A stretch of DNA of 29,290 nt from a virus. Positions within the stretch are counted from its first letter, which is position 1. Each line of letters begins with the position of its first letter. The DNA lies in IMG/VR virus record IMGVR_UViG_3300047361_000061, positions 1 through 29,290 of that record. One strand, written 5' to 3'. Made by a program: the position numbers and the translations under genes. Below, piece after piece: positions 2,416 to 28,496 of the stretch. Below the pieces are notes generated by a model that did no database searches, was not told the DNA's origin, and saw nothing but the letters and a program-made list of their open reading frames with translations.

Positions 2416-4392
2416 ATGACACAAAATAAATTAGTAAGTTGGATTATGGGGTACGTAGAGGACTGGAAAGACCACAGAGACTCTAATTACTTAGAACAAT
2501 GGAAGGAATATGAACGTCTCTGGAGAGGAGAATGGCATGCAGAGGACAGATTAAGAGACTCTGAAAGAAGTAGAATTATATCTCCTTCACTACAACAAGC
2601 AATTGAAAACCACACAGCTGAAATAGAAGAGGCTGTATTTGGTTCAGGAGGGTCTTTATTTAATATAGAAGACGACTTAGTAGACCAAAATAAGCAAGAC
2701 ATAGAAGTTATCCAGGCTTATATGAAAGAATGCTTTAAAAAAAGTGGTTTACGTAAAGCTGTAGGAGATATTACACTATTAGCGTCTATTTACGGCACTG
2801 GTATTGGTGAAGTAACACTTAAAAAGGTAGAAGAGCTTGTTCCTGCCCAACAAAATATGCCTGATGTAGATGCTAGAGCTATTGGAGTAGTAAAAAAAGA
2901 TAAAGTTAGCGTTGAATTAATGCCAATAAACCCTCAAAACTTCTTAATTGACCCTACAGCAACATCAATTAAAGATGCAATGGGTGTAGCTGTTGAAGAA
3001 TTTGTATCTACACATAAAATTGCAGAAAATATGACTAATGGTGTATATTTTGCTACAGATTTAGGTACACCATCCACACCTGACAATGATATAGAAGCAA
3101 GTTGGATTGATGAAGAGTATAATCAAGATAAAGTTAAGATAGTACGTTATTATGGATTAGTTCCTGAAGTATTATTAGAGTCATTAGGTGAAGAAGAGCC
3201 TATTGAAGAGTTATTTACAGATGATGTAGAAACACCAAAAATATTAGAAGATTATGGTAATTTAGTAGAAGCTATTATTGTTATTGGTAATGGCACTGCT
3301 TTATTAAAAGCAGAAAAATCACCATATATGATGCAAGATAGACCTGTTGTAGCTTACCAAGATGATACTGTTCCTAATAGATTTTGGGGTAGAGGTGTAG
3401 CAGAAAAAGGCTTTAATATGCAAAAAGCTATTGATGCACAACTAAGAAGCCATTTAGACTCTTTAGCATTAACAACAGTGCCTATGATGGGTATGGATGC
3501 TACTAGACTTCCTCGTGGAAGCCGACTAGAAATTAGACCTGGTAAATCAGTATTAACAAATGGTAACCCTGCTGAAATACTAATGCCATTTAAGTTTGGT
3601 AACACAGACCCTAGTAATATTCAAACAGCACAAACATTTGAAAATATGTTATTACAAGCAACAGGTACTTTAGATACTGCTAGTATGCAAAAACAACCTA
3701 CAGGAGGAGAATTATCAGTTACTCTTTCTGGAATACTAAAACGTAATAAACGAACATTAGTAAACTTTCAAGACCAATTTTTAATTCCTTTTGTAGAAAA
3801 GGCTGCTTGGAGATTTATGCAGTTTGACCCAGAAAATTTCCCAGTACAAGATTGGAAGTTTGTTCCAAGTTCAAGTTTAGGAATGTTAGCTAGAGAAGTA
3901 GAGCAGTTACAATTTATTAATCTACTTAAAACACTAGGACCAGACAGTCCAGTAACACCAATATTGCTTCAAGGTATTTTAGAAAATTCTACTTTACCTA
4001 ATAAAGAGCAGTTAAAAACTACACTAATGGAAGCTATGTCTCCAAACCCAGAGCAACAGCAACAAGAGGCTCAGATACAGCAAATGGTAACACAACTACA
4101 AATGCAAAAAGCACAAGCAGATGTAGCAGAAGTTGCCTCTAAAGTTGAGGTTAATAAATCTCAAGCTGTACGTAATATGGCAGAAGCCTCCTCAGTGCCA
4201 GAAGAAACTAGAGCTAAAGTACTTACAGCTATATCAACTAACTTACCAAATGAAGATGATATGATTGCATCAGAGTTTGATAGAAGAGTTAAAGTAGCTG
4301 AGTTAATGCTTAAAGAAGCAGATATGGACCAAAACAAAGAAATAGTAGAATTACAAATGAAAAAAGACATGGATACCTTGACAAACAAGTAG
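2416..4392 (+). CDS. Portal protein (head-tail connector)
   Basis: 658 residues, directly after terL. Such length and gene order fit the large portal proteins of podoviruses, which form a dodecameric ring at one capsid vertex. It has an acidic, helical N-terminus (YVEDWKDHRDSNYLEQWKEY), a central region with RPVVAYQDDTVPNRFWGRG, and a Gln-rich C-terminal helix from about residue 545 (EQQQQEAQIQQMVTQLQMQK) that likely makes a coiled barrel. The start has AAAGGAAC upstream. The last codons contain promoter P2: the -35 TTGACA encodes Leu-Thr and the TAG stop lies in the promoter spacer. Recognised by size, context and general sequence character. Confidence 0.87.
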   Translation: MTQNKLVSWIMGYVEDWKDHRDSNYLEQWKEYERLWRGEWHAEDRLRDSERSRIISPSLQQAIENHTAEIEEAVFGSGGSLFNIEDDLVDQNKQDIEVIQAYMKECFKKSGLRKAVGDITLLASIYGTGIGEVTLKKVEELVPAQQNMPDVDARAIGVVKKDKVSVELMPINPQNFLIDPTATSIKDAMGVAVEEFVSTHKIAENMTNGVYFATDLGTPSTPDNDIEASWIDEEYNQDKVKIVRYYGLVPEVLLESLGEEEPIEELFTDDVETPKILEDYGNLVEAIIVIGNGTALLKAEKSPYMMQDRPVVAYQDDTVPNRFWGRGVAEKGFNMQKAIDAQLRSHLDSLALTTVPMMGMDATRLPRGSRLEIRPGKSVLTNGNPAEILMPFKFGNTDPSNIQTAQTFENMLLQATGTLDTASMQKQPTGGELSVTLSGILKRNKRTLVNFQDQFLIPFVEKAAWRFMQFDPENFPVQDWKFVPSSSLGMLAREVEQLQFINLLKTLGPDSPVTPILLQGILENSTLPNKEQLKTTLMEAMSPNPEQQQQEAQIQQMVTQLQMQKAQADVAEVASKVEVNKSQAVRNMAEASSVPEETRAKVLTAISTNLPNEDDMIASEFDRRVKVAELMLKEADMDQNKEIVELQMKKDMDTLTNK

Positions 4393-8667: not shown

Positions 8668-10977
8668 ATGGGAATACTAAATAACAGCAATGCTATACCT
8701 GTAAGTGGAGCATATGAATTAGAAGATAGCTTACGCTTTCGTTCCTCTGCTAGTGCAAGTTTAACAAGAACATATGGAACTCCTACAAGTGCAAGAATTT
8801 TTACTTTAAGCATGTGGGTAAAAAGAGGTAAATTAGGTTCTTTACAGCAACTATATTCTGGTTTTACTGATTCTACAAATAGAGGTTTTATAGCTTTTCA
8901 ATCAGGAGATTTTATAGCTTGTTATGTACGAAATTCTGGAGGTGATTTATATGAATTTTCAACGCCTGCCGTTTTTCGTGACCCTTCTGCTTGGTATCAT
9001 ATTGTAGTTGCTTTTGATACTACACAAGGAACAGCAACGAACAGAGTTAAAGTTTATGTAAATGGTGTTCAACAGACTTTAACCTTAACAACAACAACTC
9101 AAGATGTTGATTTATCTTTAAATACTTCTGGTTCAGGCAAAGCAATAGGACAAAGTAATTCTATTGAGCATTTTGACGGCTACCTAACAGAAGTAAACTT
9201 TGTAGATGGACAACAATTAACACCATCAGACTTTGGTGAAACTGACGATAACGGCACTTGGATTCCTAAAAGATACACAGGAACATATGGTACAAATGGT
9301 TTTTATTTAAAAGGTAGAGGTACAGATAACTCTGGCAATGGTAATAACTTTACTGAAAATAATATAGATACATCTAGTGGTGATGCTACTTATGATTTGA
9401 TGTCAGATGTACCTACGCTAACAGATGAAGATACAAGTAACTTTGCTACATTAAATCCTAACAATATGGCAGTCAACACTACAATGACTGACGGAAACTT
9501 AAAAGCATCTAACTCTGTAAATCATGCAACTATGTTTCCTACAATTATACCTACAACAGGTAAGTATTATTTTGAGTGTACAATGCCTGTTCATGCAGCT
9601 GTAGGTGGAATAGGATTTAGAACAGATACTAACAAAGTAGAATCAGCTTACTCTGATGAAGCTAATAAATACTATTATTATTTAAACAATAGTAATGCTT
9701 ATAGAATTGTAGAAACTACTAACACAGCTTATGGCTCTAATTTAAACTCTGGTACAGCAACATTCCAAGTAGCTATAGATTTTGATGCAGCTAAATATTA
9801 CTTTGGTAGAAATAATACTTGGTATGCAGCAGATTGGGGAACAGATGGCGACCCTGCAAGTGGTACAAACCCCTCATATGATTTAACAGATGGTACTAAA
9901 ATATTTCCATTTGTTTATGTAGCAGGTATAACATGGGCAGTAAACTTTGGTCAGCAACCATTTAATTACACACCACCTACAGGATTTAAAAAGTGGAATA
10001 CATTTAACTTACCTGACTCTACTATTGAAGATGGTAGTGAGCATTTTGATGTTAAATTAGATACAGGTGCTGATATTAAGTCTACTTCAGAAGGTGTATT
10101 TACTAATCAATGGTATTGGATAAAAGACAGAGCTAATACTAACAACCATCAGCTAATAGATAGTGTGAGAGGATTAAGTGCAGTTGTTCAATCTAATACT
10201 AATGCAACAGAAACAACTTATTCAGCTCCATCTGGTAACTCGGTAGGCTGGGTTTGGAGAGGTTCAGATTCATCAGCAGTATCTAACACAGATGGTTCTA
10301 TAGCATCTACAGTATCTGCTAATCCAACTGCTGGATTTAGTATTGTTAGATATTCTGGAAATGCTACTTCAGGTGCTACAGTAGGACATGGATTAAGTGC
10401 TGCTCCAGAATTTGTTATAGGTAAAACTTTAAGTACAAGTGGTTATGATTGGGCAGTTTATGCTACTGCTCTAGGAGATACTTCAAAAACATTAACTCTT
10501 AATTTAACTGCTGCAGCAGGAACAGAAACTAATAAATATAATGGTACTGCACCTAGTGCTACTCTAGTTACTTTGGGCAATCATGCTACTAATTTAAGTG
10601 GTACAAATAATCAAGTATTATATTGTTTTGCACCAGTAGAAGGCTACAGTAAATTTGGTAAATATACAGGTAATGGCTCTGCTGATGGACCATTTGTTTA
10701 TACTGGTTTTAAACCTGCTTGGATTATGACTAAAAGAACAAATAGCACTTCACAATGGGCAATAACTGATACAGCAAGAAGCACATATAATGTTGCAAAA
10801 GAAACTTTAGAAGCAAACACATCTGCAGCAGAATCATCAGGAACAGCATATCAAATAGATATACTTTCTAATGGATTTAAGTTAAGAGATGCAGATGATG
10901 CTAGAAATGGTAGTGGAGATACATACATATACATGGCATTTGCCGAGAACCCTTTTAAAAACTCAAACGCACGATAA
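8668..10977 (+). CDS. Large tail adhesin/spike with LamG-like and SPRY-like domains
   Basis: 769 residues, the largest protein in the window. Residues about 20-205 form a concanavalin A/LamG-like lectin domain (TLSMWVKRG, WYHIVVAFD, VKVYVNGVQQ, FDGYLTEVNFVDG are its recognisable strands). Residues about 270-440 look SPRY-like (GKYYFECTM, YYFGRNNTW, VNFGQQPF followed by NYTPPTGF). The last 290 residues are a third beta-rich region containing GYSKFGKYTGNGSADGPFVY and ending YMAFAENPFKNSNAR, a layout common in marine phage tail proteins. It probably binds surface glycans of the host. It lies seven bases after the fibre gene and before a possible fibre-associated protein, so the three form an adhesion block. 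Confidence 0.83.
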   Translation: MGILNNSNAIPVSGAYELEDSLRFRSSASASLTRTYGTPTSARIFTLSMWVKRGKLGSLQQLYSGFTDSTNRGFIAFQSGDFIACYVRNSGGDLYEFSTPAVFRDPSAWYHIVVAFDTTQGTATNRVKVYVNGVQQTLTLTTTTQDVDLSLNTSGSGKAIGQSNSIEHFDGYLTEVNFVDGQQLTPSDFGETDDNGTWIPKRYTGTYGTNGFYLKGRGTDNSGNGNNFTENNIDTSSGDATYDLMSDVPTLTDEDTSNFATLNPNNMAVNTTMTDGNLKASNSVNHATMFPTIIPTTGKYYFECTMPVHAAVGGIGFRTDTNKVESAYSDEANKYYYYLNNSNAYRIVETTNTAYGSNLNSGTATFQVAIDFDAAKYYFGRNNTWYAADWGTDGDPASGTNPSYDLTDGTKIFPFVYVAGITWAVNFGQQPFNYTPPTGFKKWNTFNLPDSTIEDGSEHFDVKLDTGADIKSTSEGVFTNQWYWIKDRANTNNHQLIDSVRGLSAVVQSNTNATETTYSAPSGNSVGWVWRGSDSSAVSNTDGSIASTVSANPTAGFSIVRYSGNATSGATVGHGLSAAPEFVIGKTLSTSGYDWAVYATALGDTSKTLTLNLTAAAGTETNKYNGTAPSATLVTLGNHATNLSGTNNQVLYCFAPVEGYSKFGKYTGNGSADGPFVYTGFKPAWIMTKRTNSTSQWAITDTARSTYNVAKETLEANTSAAESSGTAYQIDILSNGFKLRDADDARNGSGDTYIYMAFAENPFKNSNAR

Positions 10978-24329: not shown

Positions 24330-24500
24330 TTAATGTCCTTTGGCTATAGACTGAATTGAAAAGTTAGAATTAACTACAAACTCATCTAGGTTTTTATCTA
24401 CATTAGCATAAAAAACTTCTTTTGCATGTAGCTCTGTTTCAGCTTCAACAGGAATTTCAAACTCTATTGTTTCTGAACATTTTACAACAAATACACTCAT
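24330..24500 (-). CDS. Small hypothetical protein
   Basis: 56 residues beginning MSVFVVKCSETIEFEIPVEA and ending FVVNSNFSIQSIAKGH; beta-rich start, acidic overall. The ATG overlaps the HNH gene stop as ATGA (24497-24500), and the next gene starts one base after its stop, so it belongs to the operon. No recognisable family or motif. Confidence 0.7.
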   Translation of the reverse strand: MSVFVVKCSETIEFEIPVEAETELHAKEVFYANVDKNLDEFVVNSNFSIQSIAKGH

Positions 24501-24874
24501 GTTTTACCTTTCTTTTTAATCCTAGTCTTACGCTCTTTTGCAGTTTTTTTATCATGACATCCACTACATAAAACTTGTAGATTATCTTTTGTACAATAGA
24601 GTCTATTTATAAAAGTATCCCAATCTATAAATCCTTCTTTAGGGCATACTACTGGATTAATATGGTCAACATTAACTTCTTTTGCAGGATAGTGCTTTTT
24701 ACATTTAGCACACTTGTAGTGCATTGCTAAACGCTTTGTTGCCTTATTAATTTTTTTACCTACATAAGCCTCTTTTAAAGTTTCGTATTTAGGAGGAAAC
24801 CTACGATACCCTCCCCTTAATACTGAAGTAATAAAAGACTTAAGCCTTCCTTCAGTCCATGGTTTTTGAGCCAT
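24497..24874 (-). CDS. HNH endonuclease
   Basis: 125 residues with one HNH domain. Zinc is held by CAKC (55-58) and CSGC (103-106); the catalytic motif is VDHINPV (Asp70-His71), with Asn98 and His107 (CSGCHDKKTAKER) completing the core. The N-terminus (KPWTEGRLKSFITSVLRGGY) and both ends are basic and may hold DNA. Start ATG 24874 has AAAGG at good distance and overlaps the exonuclease end by 23 bases. In its place among replication genes it may act as a resolvase or DNA-degrading nuclease; a free-standing homing endonuclease is the alternative. Confidence 0.9.
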   Translation of the reverse strand: MAQKPWTEGRLKSFITSVLRGGYRRFPPKYETLKEAYVGKKINKATKRLAMHYKCAKCKKHYPAKEVNVDHINPVVCPKEGFIDWDTFINRLYCTKDNLQVLCSGCHDKKTAKERKTRIKKKGKT

Positions 24875-25565
24875 TAGCTAGCCTTTCAAAATGAAGTTTA
24901 AAGTCATCATCTAAACTTCTTAAGATATATAAACATCTAGCGTTCATTATAAACTCATCATCATGTCCGTAAGATTCTCTAACTACATCAAACATTTCTT
25001 GTTCATTTAAACAGTCTTTTAACATTTTTGTAGCTGTTTTATTTCCAATTCCTTTTATACCTTTTATATTATCTGAAGTATCGCCTTTTAAGCACTGTTC
25101 ATAAAATAATCTTAAACCTTCTATATCATCTTGTTCAAAGAATGTATCCTCTTTTTTCCATCCCTTACCACTTATTTCCCATTGAAAATGTTTTCCTGGG
25201 ATTTGCAGTAAATCTTTATCAAGAGAACAGATAATGCTATTTTCATCTTGATGAATACCTAACATATCGTCAGCTTCTAAGTCTTTCTCAGCTAACTCTG
25301 CATTCATTGATTGCATAGCATATTCTCTCATATCGTTTAAATGTTTAGGTCTTTCTGCTTTTCTGTTAGCTTTATATTCAGGATATACTGTGTTTCTAAA
25401 GTTAGTAGTTCCAGTTAGAAATGCCCTGTAACTATCAGCTTCTGTCTTTGTCAGAATGTTATCTAATAACTCTTCTGCTCGATAGATAGCAATATTTACA
25501 GGGTCATTCTCAGCACTTGCAGAACACCTAAAGCATACTAAATCCATGTCTATTAAGGCTAGTAT
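24852..25565 (-). CDS. 5'-3' exonuclease, FEN/T7 gp6-like, non-canonical start
   Basis: FEN-family 5' nuclease. Motifs in order: LALIDMDLVCFRC (first metal-binding Asp), YKANRKAERP (arch/basic), EKDLEADDMLG, CSLDKDLLQIPG, and CLKGDTSDNIKGIKGIGNKT (acidic pair plus helix-three-turn-helix). It degrades DNA from 5' ends and removes RNA primers. The first ATG (25545-25547) would start the protein at MDLV and lose the first catalytic Asp. The open frame continues upstream only to the ssb TAG (25575-25577) and has no ATG, GTG or TTG. ATA at 25565 lies seven bases after AGGGGA and gives a normal N-terminus, so an AUA start is proposed here; 25547 is the conservative boundary. Confidence 0.88.
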   Translation of the reverse strand: MLALIDMDLVCFRCSASAENDPVNIAIYRAEELLDNILTKTEADSYRAFLTGTTNFRNTVYPEYKANRKAERPKHLNDMREYAMQSMNAELAEKDLEADDMLGIHQDENSIICSLDKDLLQIPGKHFQWEISGKGWKKEDTFFEQDDIEGLRLFYEQCLKGDTSDNIKGIKGIGNKTATKMLKDCLNEQEMFDVVRESYGHDDEFIMNARCLYILRSLDDDFKLHFERLANGSKTMD

Positions 25566-25574
25566 AGTGTTCCC

Positions 25575-26096
25575 CTAAACTGGTATATCATCTTCTAAGT
25601 CATCAATAGACTTGGCACTCCCACTAGAGGGGTTTCCAAACACATAGTCTTCAAACTGTTTGGCTACTGAGAGTACCTCATCTACTTTAACACCCTTACC
25701 TGAAGCAGTTAGGAGGTCTACTGCATTAGATATAGAGCTTTGGCGAACTATATACACTTGCCTCTTAGCTCTTTCATCAGAGGTTTCATAGTTACTTCCT
25801 GTGACACGTGTATTAGCTTTCCCTCCTGTTGAGGCTTTGGGGGGAGCTTCACCCTCTTTAGCAATGTTTTTCCACTGCCAATACCCATTATCATCCTTAA
25901 AGGTTTCAATATCAAGGCGGTCATCTTTAGCAAACTCTTGTATTTCTTTAAAAACTGCAGGGTTAGCAAAAGACATTAACTTCTTACCTTGTACTTGACC
26001 TGACTCGTTCCTATAACTTACTTCTAAAGATTGATAAGACCCACGTTGAGTTTTAACTGACTGGGGTTGACTTACATCTATTAAAGTTACTATCAT
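25575..26096 (-). CDS. ssb: Single-stranded DNA-binding protein
   Basis: 173 residues. The N-terminal half is an OB-fold-like beta region (MIVTLIDVSQPQSVKTQRGS, then YQSLEVSYRN and WQWKNIAKEG). The C-terminal half has RQVYIVRQSSISNAVDLLTA and EVLSVAKQFEDYVFG, recurrent in phage SSBs, and ends in an acidic tail DDLEDDIPV that normally binds partner proteins. It protects single-stranded DNA at the fork. Ribosome binding site AGGAGAA precedes ATG 26096, and promoter P4 lies just upstream, giving it separate expression. Confidence 0.87.
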   Translation of the reverse strand: MIVTLIDVSQPQSVKTQRGSYQSLEVSYRNESGQVQGKKLMSFANPAVFKEIQEFAKDDRLDIETFKDDNGYWQWKNIAKEGEAPPKASTGGKANTRVTGSNYETSDERAKRQVYIVRQSSISNAVDLLTASGKGVKVDEVLSVAKQFEDYVFGNPSSGSAKSIDDLEDDIPV

Positions 26097-26130: not shown

Positions 26131-26158
26131 ATTATACCACAATTATATAACTTGTCAA
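26131..26158 (-). promoter_or_regulatory. Promoter P4, - strand, before ssb
   Basis: On the - strand: -35 TTGACA (complement of 26153-26158), 16-bp spacer, -10 TATAAT (complement of 26131-26136). The -35 includes the TGA stop of the polymerase C-terminal gene. The ATTGTGG before the -10 matches P1 and P2. It would raise SSB and exonuclease levels above those of the polymerase. Confidence 0.83.
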
Positions 26159-26871
26159 GCATTTTCCCAAACTTTCATATCCTTCCAATTACGTCCAATT
26201 TGTACCTCAGCTTTCATAGGTAAATTAAACTCTACACCAAATATTTTCTGAAAGTTTTTAGGTACATCTTCAAACACTTGTAACATCATTGCAGATAATT
26301 CATCTACTAAGTTTTTTTCACAATCAATAATAATTGAATCATGTACTGTGTTTACTAGCTTAGCATTTTTATACTTACCTTTCATACGATTGTATAAAGA
26401 CACTCTTGCAATTGTCATAAGGTCAGCACCCAATCCTTGAACAGGATAATTTAATATCGTAGTTCTAGGATATTTCTTTTTACCATACTGCATAGTAGGT
26501 TCAAACTGATAAACTCTACCAGTTGGTAAGGTAACTTTTTTAGTTGATATGGCTTCTTGCACAAGCTTAATGTGCCATGTATGAAGTCCTTGATACTTTG
26601 CATAAAACTCATCAATAACCTTTTGCCAAAACTTTTCTGACTTACTAACCTCAGCAAAGTTAGGGTCATTTGCATAACTAAAAGCACTACCACCATAGAT
26701 AAGTCTAAACACAAATGTCTTTGCTATGAGTCTAGAGGGTAGTCCAAACCTATTCTGATTATCTGTATGTTGGTCTACATCATTCCATATCTCTTGATAG
26801 GCTGTCTTATCTTGACTTAAAAATCCTGCACATCTCCACTCTAATGCTGAAGCGTCCCCTTGTATTAGCAT
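26155..26871 (-). CDS. polA: Family A DNA polymerase, C-terminal (palm/fingers) half of a split gene
   Basis: 238 residues. It starts MLIQGDASALEWR, polymerase motif A (Asp6 = catalytic). Motif B is SRLIAKTFVFRLIYGG (Arg47, Lys51, Phe55, Tyr59); Phe55 equals E. coli Phe762. Motif C is NTVHDSIII (Asp178). The palm and finger catalytic residues are therefore complete. The exonuclease, thumb and motif 1 are missing here and are encoded separately at 27330-28496. It has its own perfect ribosome binding site (TAAGGAGGTAAA before ATG), so it is translated independently. The two products must associate to make an active polymerase. Confidence 0.93.
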   Translation of the reverse strand: MLIQGDASALEWRCAGFLSQDKTAYQEIWNDVDQHTDNQNRFGLPSRLIAKTFVFRLIYGGSAFSYANDPNFAEVSKSEKFWQKVIDEFYAKYQGLHTWHIKLVQEAISTKKVTLPTGRVYQFEPTMQYGKKKYPRTTILNYPVQGLGADLMTIARVSLYNRMKGKYKNAKLVNTVHDSIIIDCEKNLVDELSAMMLQVFEDVPKNFQKIFGVEFNLPMKAEVQIGRNWKDMKVWENA

Positions 26872-26880
26872 TTTACCTCC

Positions 26881-27168
26881 TTATAATATAGTACATCCTT
26901 TATGTTCCATGCAAGGATAATCTGAATATAACTTACCACTGCATACGTTTCCTGTTACTCTTTGTTCTTTCTTGGTAAATAAATCAATTACCATTTCTGT
27001 TGTTGTGTCTTCCCCTTGTATTATTGCCCTACCATCATATATGTACTTACTTCTATCTATAAATCTATAGTATTCATTAGTAGGAAAACTAACTATTAGA
27101 CTGCAACTTTGCAACATTATACAAATTAATAGGAGGCAAACTAATTTCTTTTCATAAGAGACATTCAT
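26881..27168 (-). CDS. Putative lipoprotein inserted between the polymerase halves
   Basis: 95 residues. The N-terminus has a basic start (YEKK) and a hydrophobic run (LVCLLLICIMLQSC) ending in a lipobox LQSC, with Cys22 as the likely lipidated residue. The mature part is short with three further cysteines near the end (GNVCSG, YPCMEH, KGCTIL). It lies nine bases before the C-terminal polymerase gene and overlaps the previous small gene by 17. It would sit in the envelope, unrelated to replication. Roles such as superinfection exclusion or spanin are possible; neither is shown. Confidence 0.72.
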   Translation of the reverse strand: MNVSYEKKLVCLLLICIMLQSCSLIVSFPTNEYYRFIDRSKYIYDGRAIIQGEDTTTEMVIDLFTKKEQRVTGNVCSGKLYSDYPCMEHKGCTIL

Positions 27169-27328
27169 CTTCTTTATTACTCCAATCTATATGTTCAATT
27201 TTAGATAAACTTAGTCCAGGCTTTTCTTGTATAAAACGTTTAGCTGATTCTTTATCTTTAAATCGTTTTACAACATAGCCATCTGTATCTACTACATTAT
27301 AATTAAAATCCCATTTTGTAGTTTCCAT
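27152..27328 (-). CDS. Small hypothetical protein between the polymerase halves
   Basis: 58 residues starting METTKWDFNYNVVDTDGYVV, then KRFKDKESAKRFIQEKPGLS, ending WSNKEDECLL. It looks like a compact alpha/beta protein with a basic central helix. Its ATG is one base after the stop of the polymerase N-terminal gene, and the last two glycine codons of that gene (GGAGGG) form its ribosome binding site. No family recognised; no nuclease, intein or intron-encoded motif is present. Confidence 0.7.
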   Translation of the reverse strand: METTKWDFNYNVVDTDGYVVKRFKDKESAKRFIQEKPGLSLSKIEHIDWSNKEDECLL

Positions 27329-27329
27329 A

Positions 27330-28496
27330 TTACCCTCCGTACCTTGAATAAAATAACTCTTTTATTTCTCCGTCAAAATTTTGTAGATTCGGTCTTGAGG
27401 AACTAAGACGACCAGTTCTAGCAACACACTGGTTGAGTTGCCCATGTAGTTTACCTTCAAGCCAACCTTGAGTTTGTCTGAGTTCGGGCAGTCCTTGATA
27501 GTAAGTTCCTCTACGTTTCTCAAGTCCATTCCTTTTAAGGATACGTTTAATAACTTCTTTAGCGTCTTTTGTACCCCTAAGACTTCTAAGCGTTTGTTCA
27601 TCTGTGCTGAAATATCCATCTTTCTTTAACTCACTCCCTTTTAATGGCTCTACTATCCTAGGTAGTTTATATGTATAGTCTACCCACCCAAACTTATCCT
27701 CACCTTTTCTAGCTCCTGTTTTATATGTGCCAACCAGTTCTTTCTTAGGTATCGTAACATCTCCTCCATAAAGCAAACAACTGAGATGGTCATTGCTATT
27801 AAAATTAATATCGTCCACACCACAAATATCCACAAGCTCTTCATCAATTTTAGTAAGCTCTTCTTGCATAGCTTTCCCAAGTTCAATAGATTTTTTTTCA
27901 TCATACAAAATTCCATTATATTCCATCTCCTCTAAAACTTTTAAGTCTTGGTTATGTAAACTAATCAGTCTTTGTCTTTCAGGAGGACATTGTGTAACCT
28001 CCTCTTGCTGTTTTTTAAGAACTTGATAAGTTACCTCTAGGTCTTTCTGTAAATACTCTTCAAGTAAATCTTTTGGTACATCAGGAGTATCTATACCTTT
28101 ACTCCAATACTCATCATGTACAACATCTAACTTCTGTTCTAATCCATAATGCTCGGCAACTTTATTTAAAGATGGATAAGGTGCAGATTGATTTTGCAAA
28201 ATAAAATGTACCAACTGTCCGTCCCATATTCTATGGTTAGAAAAATCTATCCCATACTTACGCACCCAATGCAAGTCAAACTTAGCATTAAAAGCCACAA
28301 GACAATCATATTCATTTATAATATTTTGTATCTCTTCTAACTTCTTACGATAAGGGTCATCAGAATATTCTATGTCAAATATATGACTAGTCTTCCCATC
28401 ATACAATCCAACATAACACAACTTATTATTAACTGAAAAAGGGCTACCCTTATTCGTAGTAGTAGTCTCTACGTCCAATACTAAATATTTAGTCAT
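27330..28496 (-). CDS. polA: Family A DNA polymerase, N-terminal (3'-5' exonuclease/thumb) half of a split gene
   Basis: 388 residues. The exonuclease domain has YLVLDVETTT (Asp8, Glu10), AFNAKFDLHW (Exo II) and EYLQKDLEVTYQV (Exo III), so proofreading is expected. A thumb-like region follows, and the protein ends just after motif 1, ARTGRLSSSRPNLQNFDGEI, with KELFYSRYGG and a stop. In intact enzymes motif A comes directly after this point; here it begins the separate gene at 26871. Together the halves total 626 residues, a normal phage PolA size. The start overlaps the stop of the upstream Cys-rich gene (ATGA). Confidence 0.93.
   Translation of the reverse strand: MTKYLVLDVETTTTNKGSPFSVNNKLCYVGLYDGKTSHIFDIEYSDDPYRKKLEEIQNIINEYDCLVAFNAKFDLHWVRKYGIDFSNHRIWDGQLVHFILQNQSAPYPSLNKVAEHYGLEQKLDVVHDEYWSKGIDTPDVPKDLLEEYLQKDLEVTYQVLKKQQEEVTQCPPERQRLISLHNQDLKVLEEMEYNGILYDEKKSIELGKAMQEELTKIDEELVDICGVDDINFNSNDHLSCLLYGGDVTIPKKELVGTYKTGARKGEDKFGWVDYTYKLPRIVEPLKGSELKKDGYFSTDEQTLRSLRGTKDAKEVIKRILKRNGLEKRRGTYYQGLPELRQTQGWLEGKLHGQLNQCVARTGRLSSSRPNLQNFDGEIKELFYSRYGG

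Follow-up and report, generated by a model that had tools for sequence, protein, structure and literature searches.

Starts at AUU, AUC, and AUA occur in bacteria, and IF3 discriminates against them (PMC4611024). In S. aureus the infC, ccpN, and citZ genes start at AUA. Reporters with non-canonical sites in this species yielded about 10% of the AUG level in poor medium and, for ccpN, up to 30% in rich medium, and the non-canonical start of ccpN was described as strongly conserved (PMC13009471). In E. coli, excess IF3 lowers re-initiation past an upstream stop, and does so less when a Shine-Dalgarno sequence is present (PMC2268962). The proposed 5' exonuclease start that we describe here resembles the infC class (AUU in E. 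coli infC; AUA in S. aureus infC, ccpN, and citZ), in that it is an AUH codon with a good Shine-Dalgarno sequence and is conserved among relatives (PMC13009471, PMC4611024). It differs from that class in belonging to a phage DNA-replication nuclease instead of a host gene and in immediately following the stop codon of a neighbouring gene. A literature search of open-licence papers found no earlier phage AUA start. On sequence grounds, the exonuclease AUA adds a conserved phage example to a type of start that is already known.

The window, i.e. the whole stretch of DNA analysed, is a virus record of 29,290 bases from a phage of marine type. Its nearest named relatives are the Methylophilales phages MEP402 and MEP401 (Zobellviridae; PMC10580990), which likewise carry the gene order polymerase, SSB-like gene, exonuclease, and HNH endonuclease, and whose exonucleases are 65-67% identical to the window protein. 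Unlike the exonuclease of the window, both of theirs begin with ATG. MEP402 has TAGGAGATAAATATG, with layout and spacing as in the window but with ATG at the start (TAG GAG ATA AAT ATG), and differs further in that its SSB-like gene is separated from the exonuclease by a small additional gene. The DNA polymerase A of the window (26155-28496, minus strand) is divided between two genes, at 27330-28496 and 26155-26871, and between the halves lie a lipoprotein-like ORF of 95 aa (26881-27168) and a small ORF (about 27152-27361). The polymerase is split in the same manner in MEP401 and MEP402, for which an intron was suggested (PMC10580990).

The exonuclease and its first Asp

The exonuclease frame (25574-24852, minus strand) is open from 25574, and the gene is predicted to encode a 5'-3' exonuclease of the FEN/PolI type. 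The protein matched the PHROG 107 exonuclease (E = 8.6e-61) and the 5'-3' exonuclease N-terminal domain of Pfam (PF02739; 46.3 bits, above the cut-off of 34.3), and the C-terminal PF01367 scored 38.1, slightly below its cut-off of 40. PDB profile matches were to the T5 5'-exonuclease and to DNA polymerase I 5' nuclease domains. By profile match, fold family and acidic residues are common to the window protein and the FEN-type phage 5' nucleases (T5 5'-exonuclease, PHROG 107), from which it differs as a shorter phage variant with a non-canonical start codon. Counted from the AUA, the FEN-type protein comprises 237 aa, begins (M)LALIDMDLVCFR..., and occupies 24852-25565 of the minus strand. The end of the gene is overlapped by the HNH endonuclease gene (24497-24874, minus strand), recognized from the ORF list, Pfam HNH, and the PHROG HNH endonuclease.

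The first Asp of the exonuclease is residue 6 from the AUA (codon 25548-25550, minus strand) and aligned with the Asp of LLDGNSLAFRA, the N-terminal motif of DNA polymerase I 6vde. This Asp and the EADD, DKD, and GDxxDN motifs did not vary in two alignments (A1 and A3), which comprised 18 and 20 relatives, and the DxD motif was missing from none of the homologous loci collected. An earlier note on this DNA had claimed that no canonical start precedes the first catalytic Asp and that the first ATG, at MDLV, would remove it. Both statements held: in the window ATG, GTG, and TTG are absent from the exonuclease frame ahead of the GAC codon, and the Asp was found in every relative. For the protein to contain its first Asp, translation has to begin upstream of ATG 25547.

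This ATG (25545-25547, minus strand) is nevertheless the first canonical start in the frame and the choice of standard gene callers. Translation from it would yield 231 aa without the first Asp, a product that would be inactive or of altered activity, and we regard such a start as very improbable. The ATG has no Shine-Dalgarno sequence (duplex energy of +1.3 kcal/mol vs. -6.4 for the ATA), its Met is not conserved and is Q, H, G, A, or S in relatives, the ALID codons upstream of it are conserved, and the Asp that would be deleted is invariant. Relatives truly starting at MDLV, which would have counted against the AUA reading, were sought and none was found.

The start position in the window and its relatives

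On the minus strand the junction reads GAT ATA CCA GTT, then TAG (25577-25575), GGG AAC ACT, ATA (25565-25563), CTA GCC TTA ATA, GAC (25550-25548), ATG (25547), and GAT. The proposed AUA start codon of the exonuclease (25563-25565) is preceded at a distance of six bases by the Shine-Dalgarno core AGGGG (25572-25576), identified from the sequence and its anti-SD duplex, and the AG of the upstream stop (25575-25577) is part of this Shine-Dalgarno sequence. The claim that it is well positioned was borne out by the six-base gap and a duplex energy of -6.4 kcal/mol. In the relative L007 the energy was -7.3 kcal/mol, and the median at the ATG starts of relatives was -3.3. A Shine-Dalgarno sequence this strong lies upstream of only about 4% of the ATA triplets in the window. 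The layouts of the window (TAGGGG-AACACT-ATA) and L007 (TAGGAG-ATAATC-ATA) are alike, each with the core overlapping the TAG and with a six-base spacer. Local RNA folds around the junction had nothing in common that we could find.

IMG/VR was scanned with the exonuclease and the SSB-like protein as queries, yielding over 200 loci. Across 118 distinct junctions the distance from the start codon to the first Asp was five codons, apart from a few starts placed another one to four codons upstream. The codon was nearly always ATG, and in a few cases GTG or TTG. Repeated over all loci, the analysis covered 127 distinct junctions, with 113 ATG, 4 GTG, 6 TTG, 2 ATA, and 1 ATC; the remote outlier L058 was assigned no start by the method. 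The ATA of the window occupies exactly the place at which relatives have ATG, GTG, or TTG. Compared with the infC class, the window thus has an AUH codon at the NTG position of its relatives, no earlier in-frame NTG, and a well-placed Shine-Dalgarno sequence six bases upstream at -6.4 kcal/mol.

Of the 127 junctions, the two with ATA belong to the window and to the group L007-L009. The three contigs of this group, which originate in separate metagenome records, agree at every position over 1,571 bases, and their exonuclease shows 73% protein identity to that of the window. A direct scan of the closest motif for ATH at the start position returned L007-L009 and nothing else. The window is a single metagenome record and ATA is one base from ATG, which raises sequencing or assembly error as an explanation. 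That L007, L008, and L009, from other metagenome records, have ATA at this site too makes error the least probable of the alternatives, and we give it next to no weight. The alignment of the junction that the earlier note had called for thus returned mostly ATG at this position, and ATA itself in L007-L009. Its proposal that translation begins at AUA 25565 gained support from the homology of this codon to the NTG of relatives, the ATA of L007-L009, and the Shine-Dalgarno sequence well placed in both lineages.

In the tree the window paired with L007 (SH-aLRT of 89, below the mark of 95) beside a sister group that carries ATG. The simplest reading of this tree suggests a single change from ATG to ATA that was long retained. 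On this reading the retention is old, as only 19 of 40 fourfold sites are identical between the window and L007. The conservation of ATA represents two lineages, probably with one origin. At this fourfold-site identity the third-base A alone could be kept by chance about half the time, and for this reason the position of the codon and its Shine-Dalgarno sequence outweigh the conservation of the A. The codons between ATA and Asp behave as coding sequence in the two lineages, with Ala-Leu-Ile kept while TTA is changed to CTC.

Two exonucleases of more remote relationship showed other unusual codons at the start position. L232 (start codon at 9393, minus strand; also seen as L241:948) has ATC and no in-frame NTG, with the Shine-Dalgarno sequence AAGGAG six bases upstream (AAGGAG-AACTAT-ATC), and its relative L242 (79%) has ATG. 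L281 (minus strand, start codon at 4341) has CTG and no in-frame NTG, with GGAG six bases upstream (GGAG-ATAAGT-CTG). Each of these codons comes from one contig, is one base from ATG, and may be an error; both were found by patterns targeting such codons and give no frequency. A scan of viral contigs for AGGA plus ATH provided no further non-NTG case: L269 was rejected, as an ATG directly follows its ATT, and the other hits were unrelated or had an NTG start upstream. In bacterial and archaeal genomes a scan for exonucleases with ATH starts gave no genuine exonuclease, and its hits looked like chance matches.

The upstream gene and the shared frame

The gene upstream of the exonuclease (25575-26096, minus strand; 173 aa) was delimited from the ORF list, its relatives, and a conserved C-terminal tip. 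In the window its protein ends ...DDLEDDIPV before the TAG, and DDIPV corresponds to DDIPY in L007. Most of 137 distinct relatives end in DDIP, SDIP, DDVP, or a similar motif, with F, L, Y, or V as the usual last residue, and when examined for an acidic C-terminal tip of the DDIPF type, as in SSB, the upstream protein was found to have one. The label ssb in the earlier note needs qualifying. We infer the name from position, small size, and the SSB-like tip; searches of Pfam, PHROGs, NCBIfam, and PDB matched the protein to no family or structure. It is annotated as hypothetical in the named phages and carries no annotation in all five matching phage records. This conserved SSB-like protein with its DDIP(F/L/Y/V) tip is possibly an undescribed phage SSB family.

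As the earlier note had stated, the upstream gene and the exonuclease are in one frame across the TAG, and this is the case in both the window and L007. The shared frame could mean that ribosomes must read through TAG 25577 to make the exonuclease, which would then exist solely as a fusion with the SSB-like protein. However, 60 of 72 distinct adjacent pairs (relatives and window) are out of frame, mostly since TAA overlaps ATG, and the stop of the upstream gene in relatives is mostly TAA. The linker of three residues from TAG to ATA varies, being GNT in the window and EII in L007, and no suppressor tRNA was seen in the window. In bacterial SSB the tip functions as a free C-terminal end, through which partners are bound; in a fusion the conserved DDIP(F/L/Y/V) terminus would lie buried inside the chain. 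The shared frame is explained by arithmetic instead, because the TAG doubles as part of the Shine-Dalgarno sequence and is followed by a six-base spacer. Readthrough, which the earlier note had offered as a second possibility, is therefore highly unlikely.

Proposed initiation and its meaning

The best explanation, in which we have high confidence, is that the FEN-type 5' exonuclease of this Zobellviridae-like phage is translated from AUA 25565-25563, placed by the AGGGG Shine-Dalgarno sequence. Overlapping the TAG stop, this sequence would place ribosomes at the AUA, which the initiator tRNA would read, presumably with fMet. The N-terminus of the product would then read MLALIDMDLVCFR. Ribosomes terminating at the upstream TAG probably help initiation, and the two events would in that case be coupled.

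By analogy with the bacterial AUA starts, initiation at this AUA may be attenuated and IF3-sensitive. We see an even chance that the weak, IF3-discriminated codon holds the amount of exonuclease below that of the SSB-like protein encoded on the same message. A more general idea is that Zobellviridae-like phages repeatedly put codons discriminated by IF3 at the start of this gene (AUA in the window and L007, AUC in L232, CUG in L281), either as a built-in check on a nuclease that could be self-destructive or to time it by the IF3 level of the host. Each of these codons has a Shine-Dalgarno sequence six bases upstream, and we hold the idea to be speculative and rather unlikely.

Gene callers that take only ATG, GTG, and TTG would truncate the enzyme past an active-site residue, and because of this truncation the gene would be misread as defective. 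Most known examples of start-codon attenuation are infC and a small number of host genes, and an AUA start that is conserved in a replication enzyme of phages would extend it to phage DNA metabolism.
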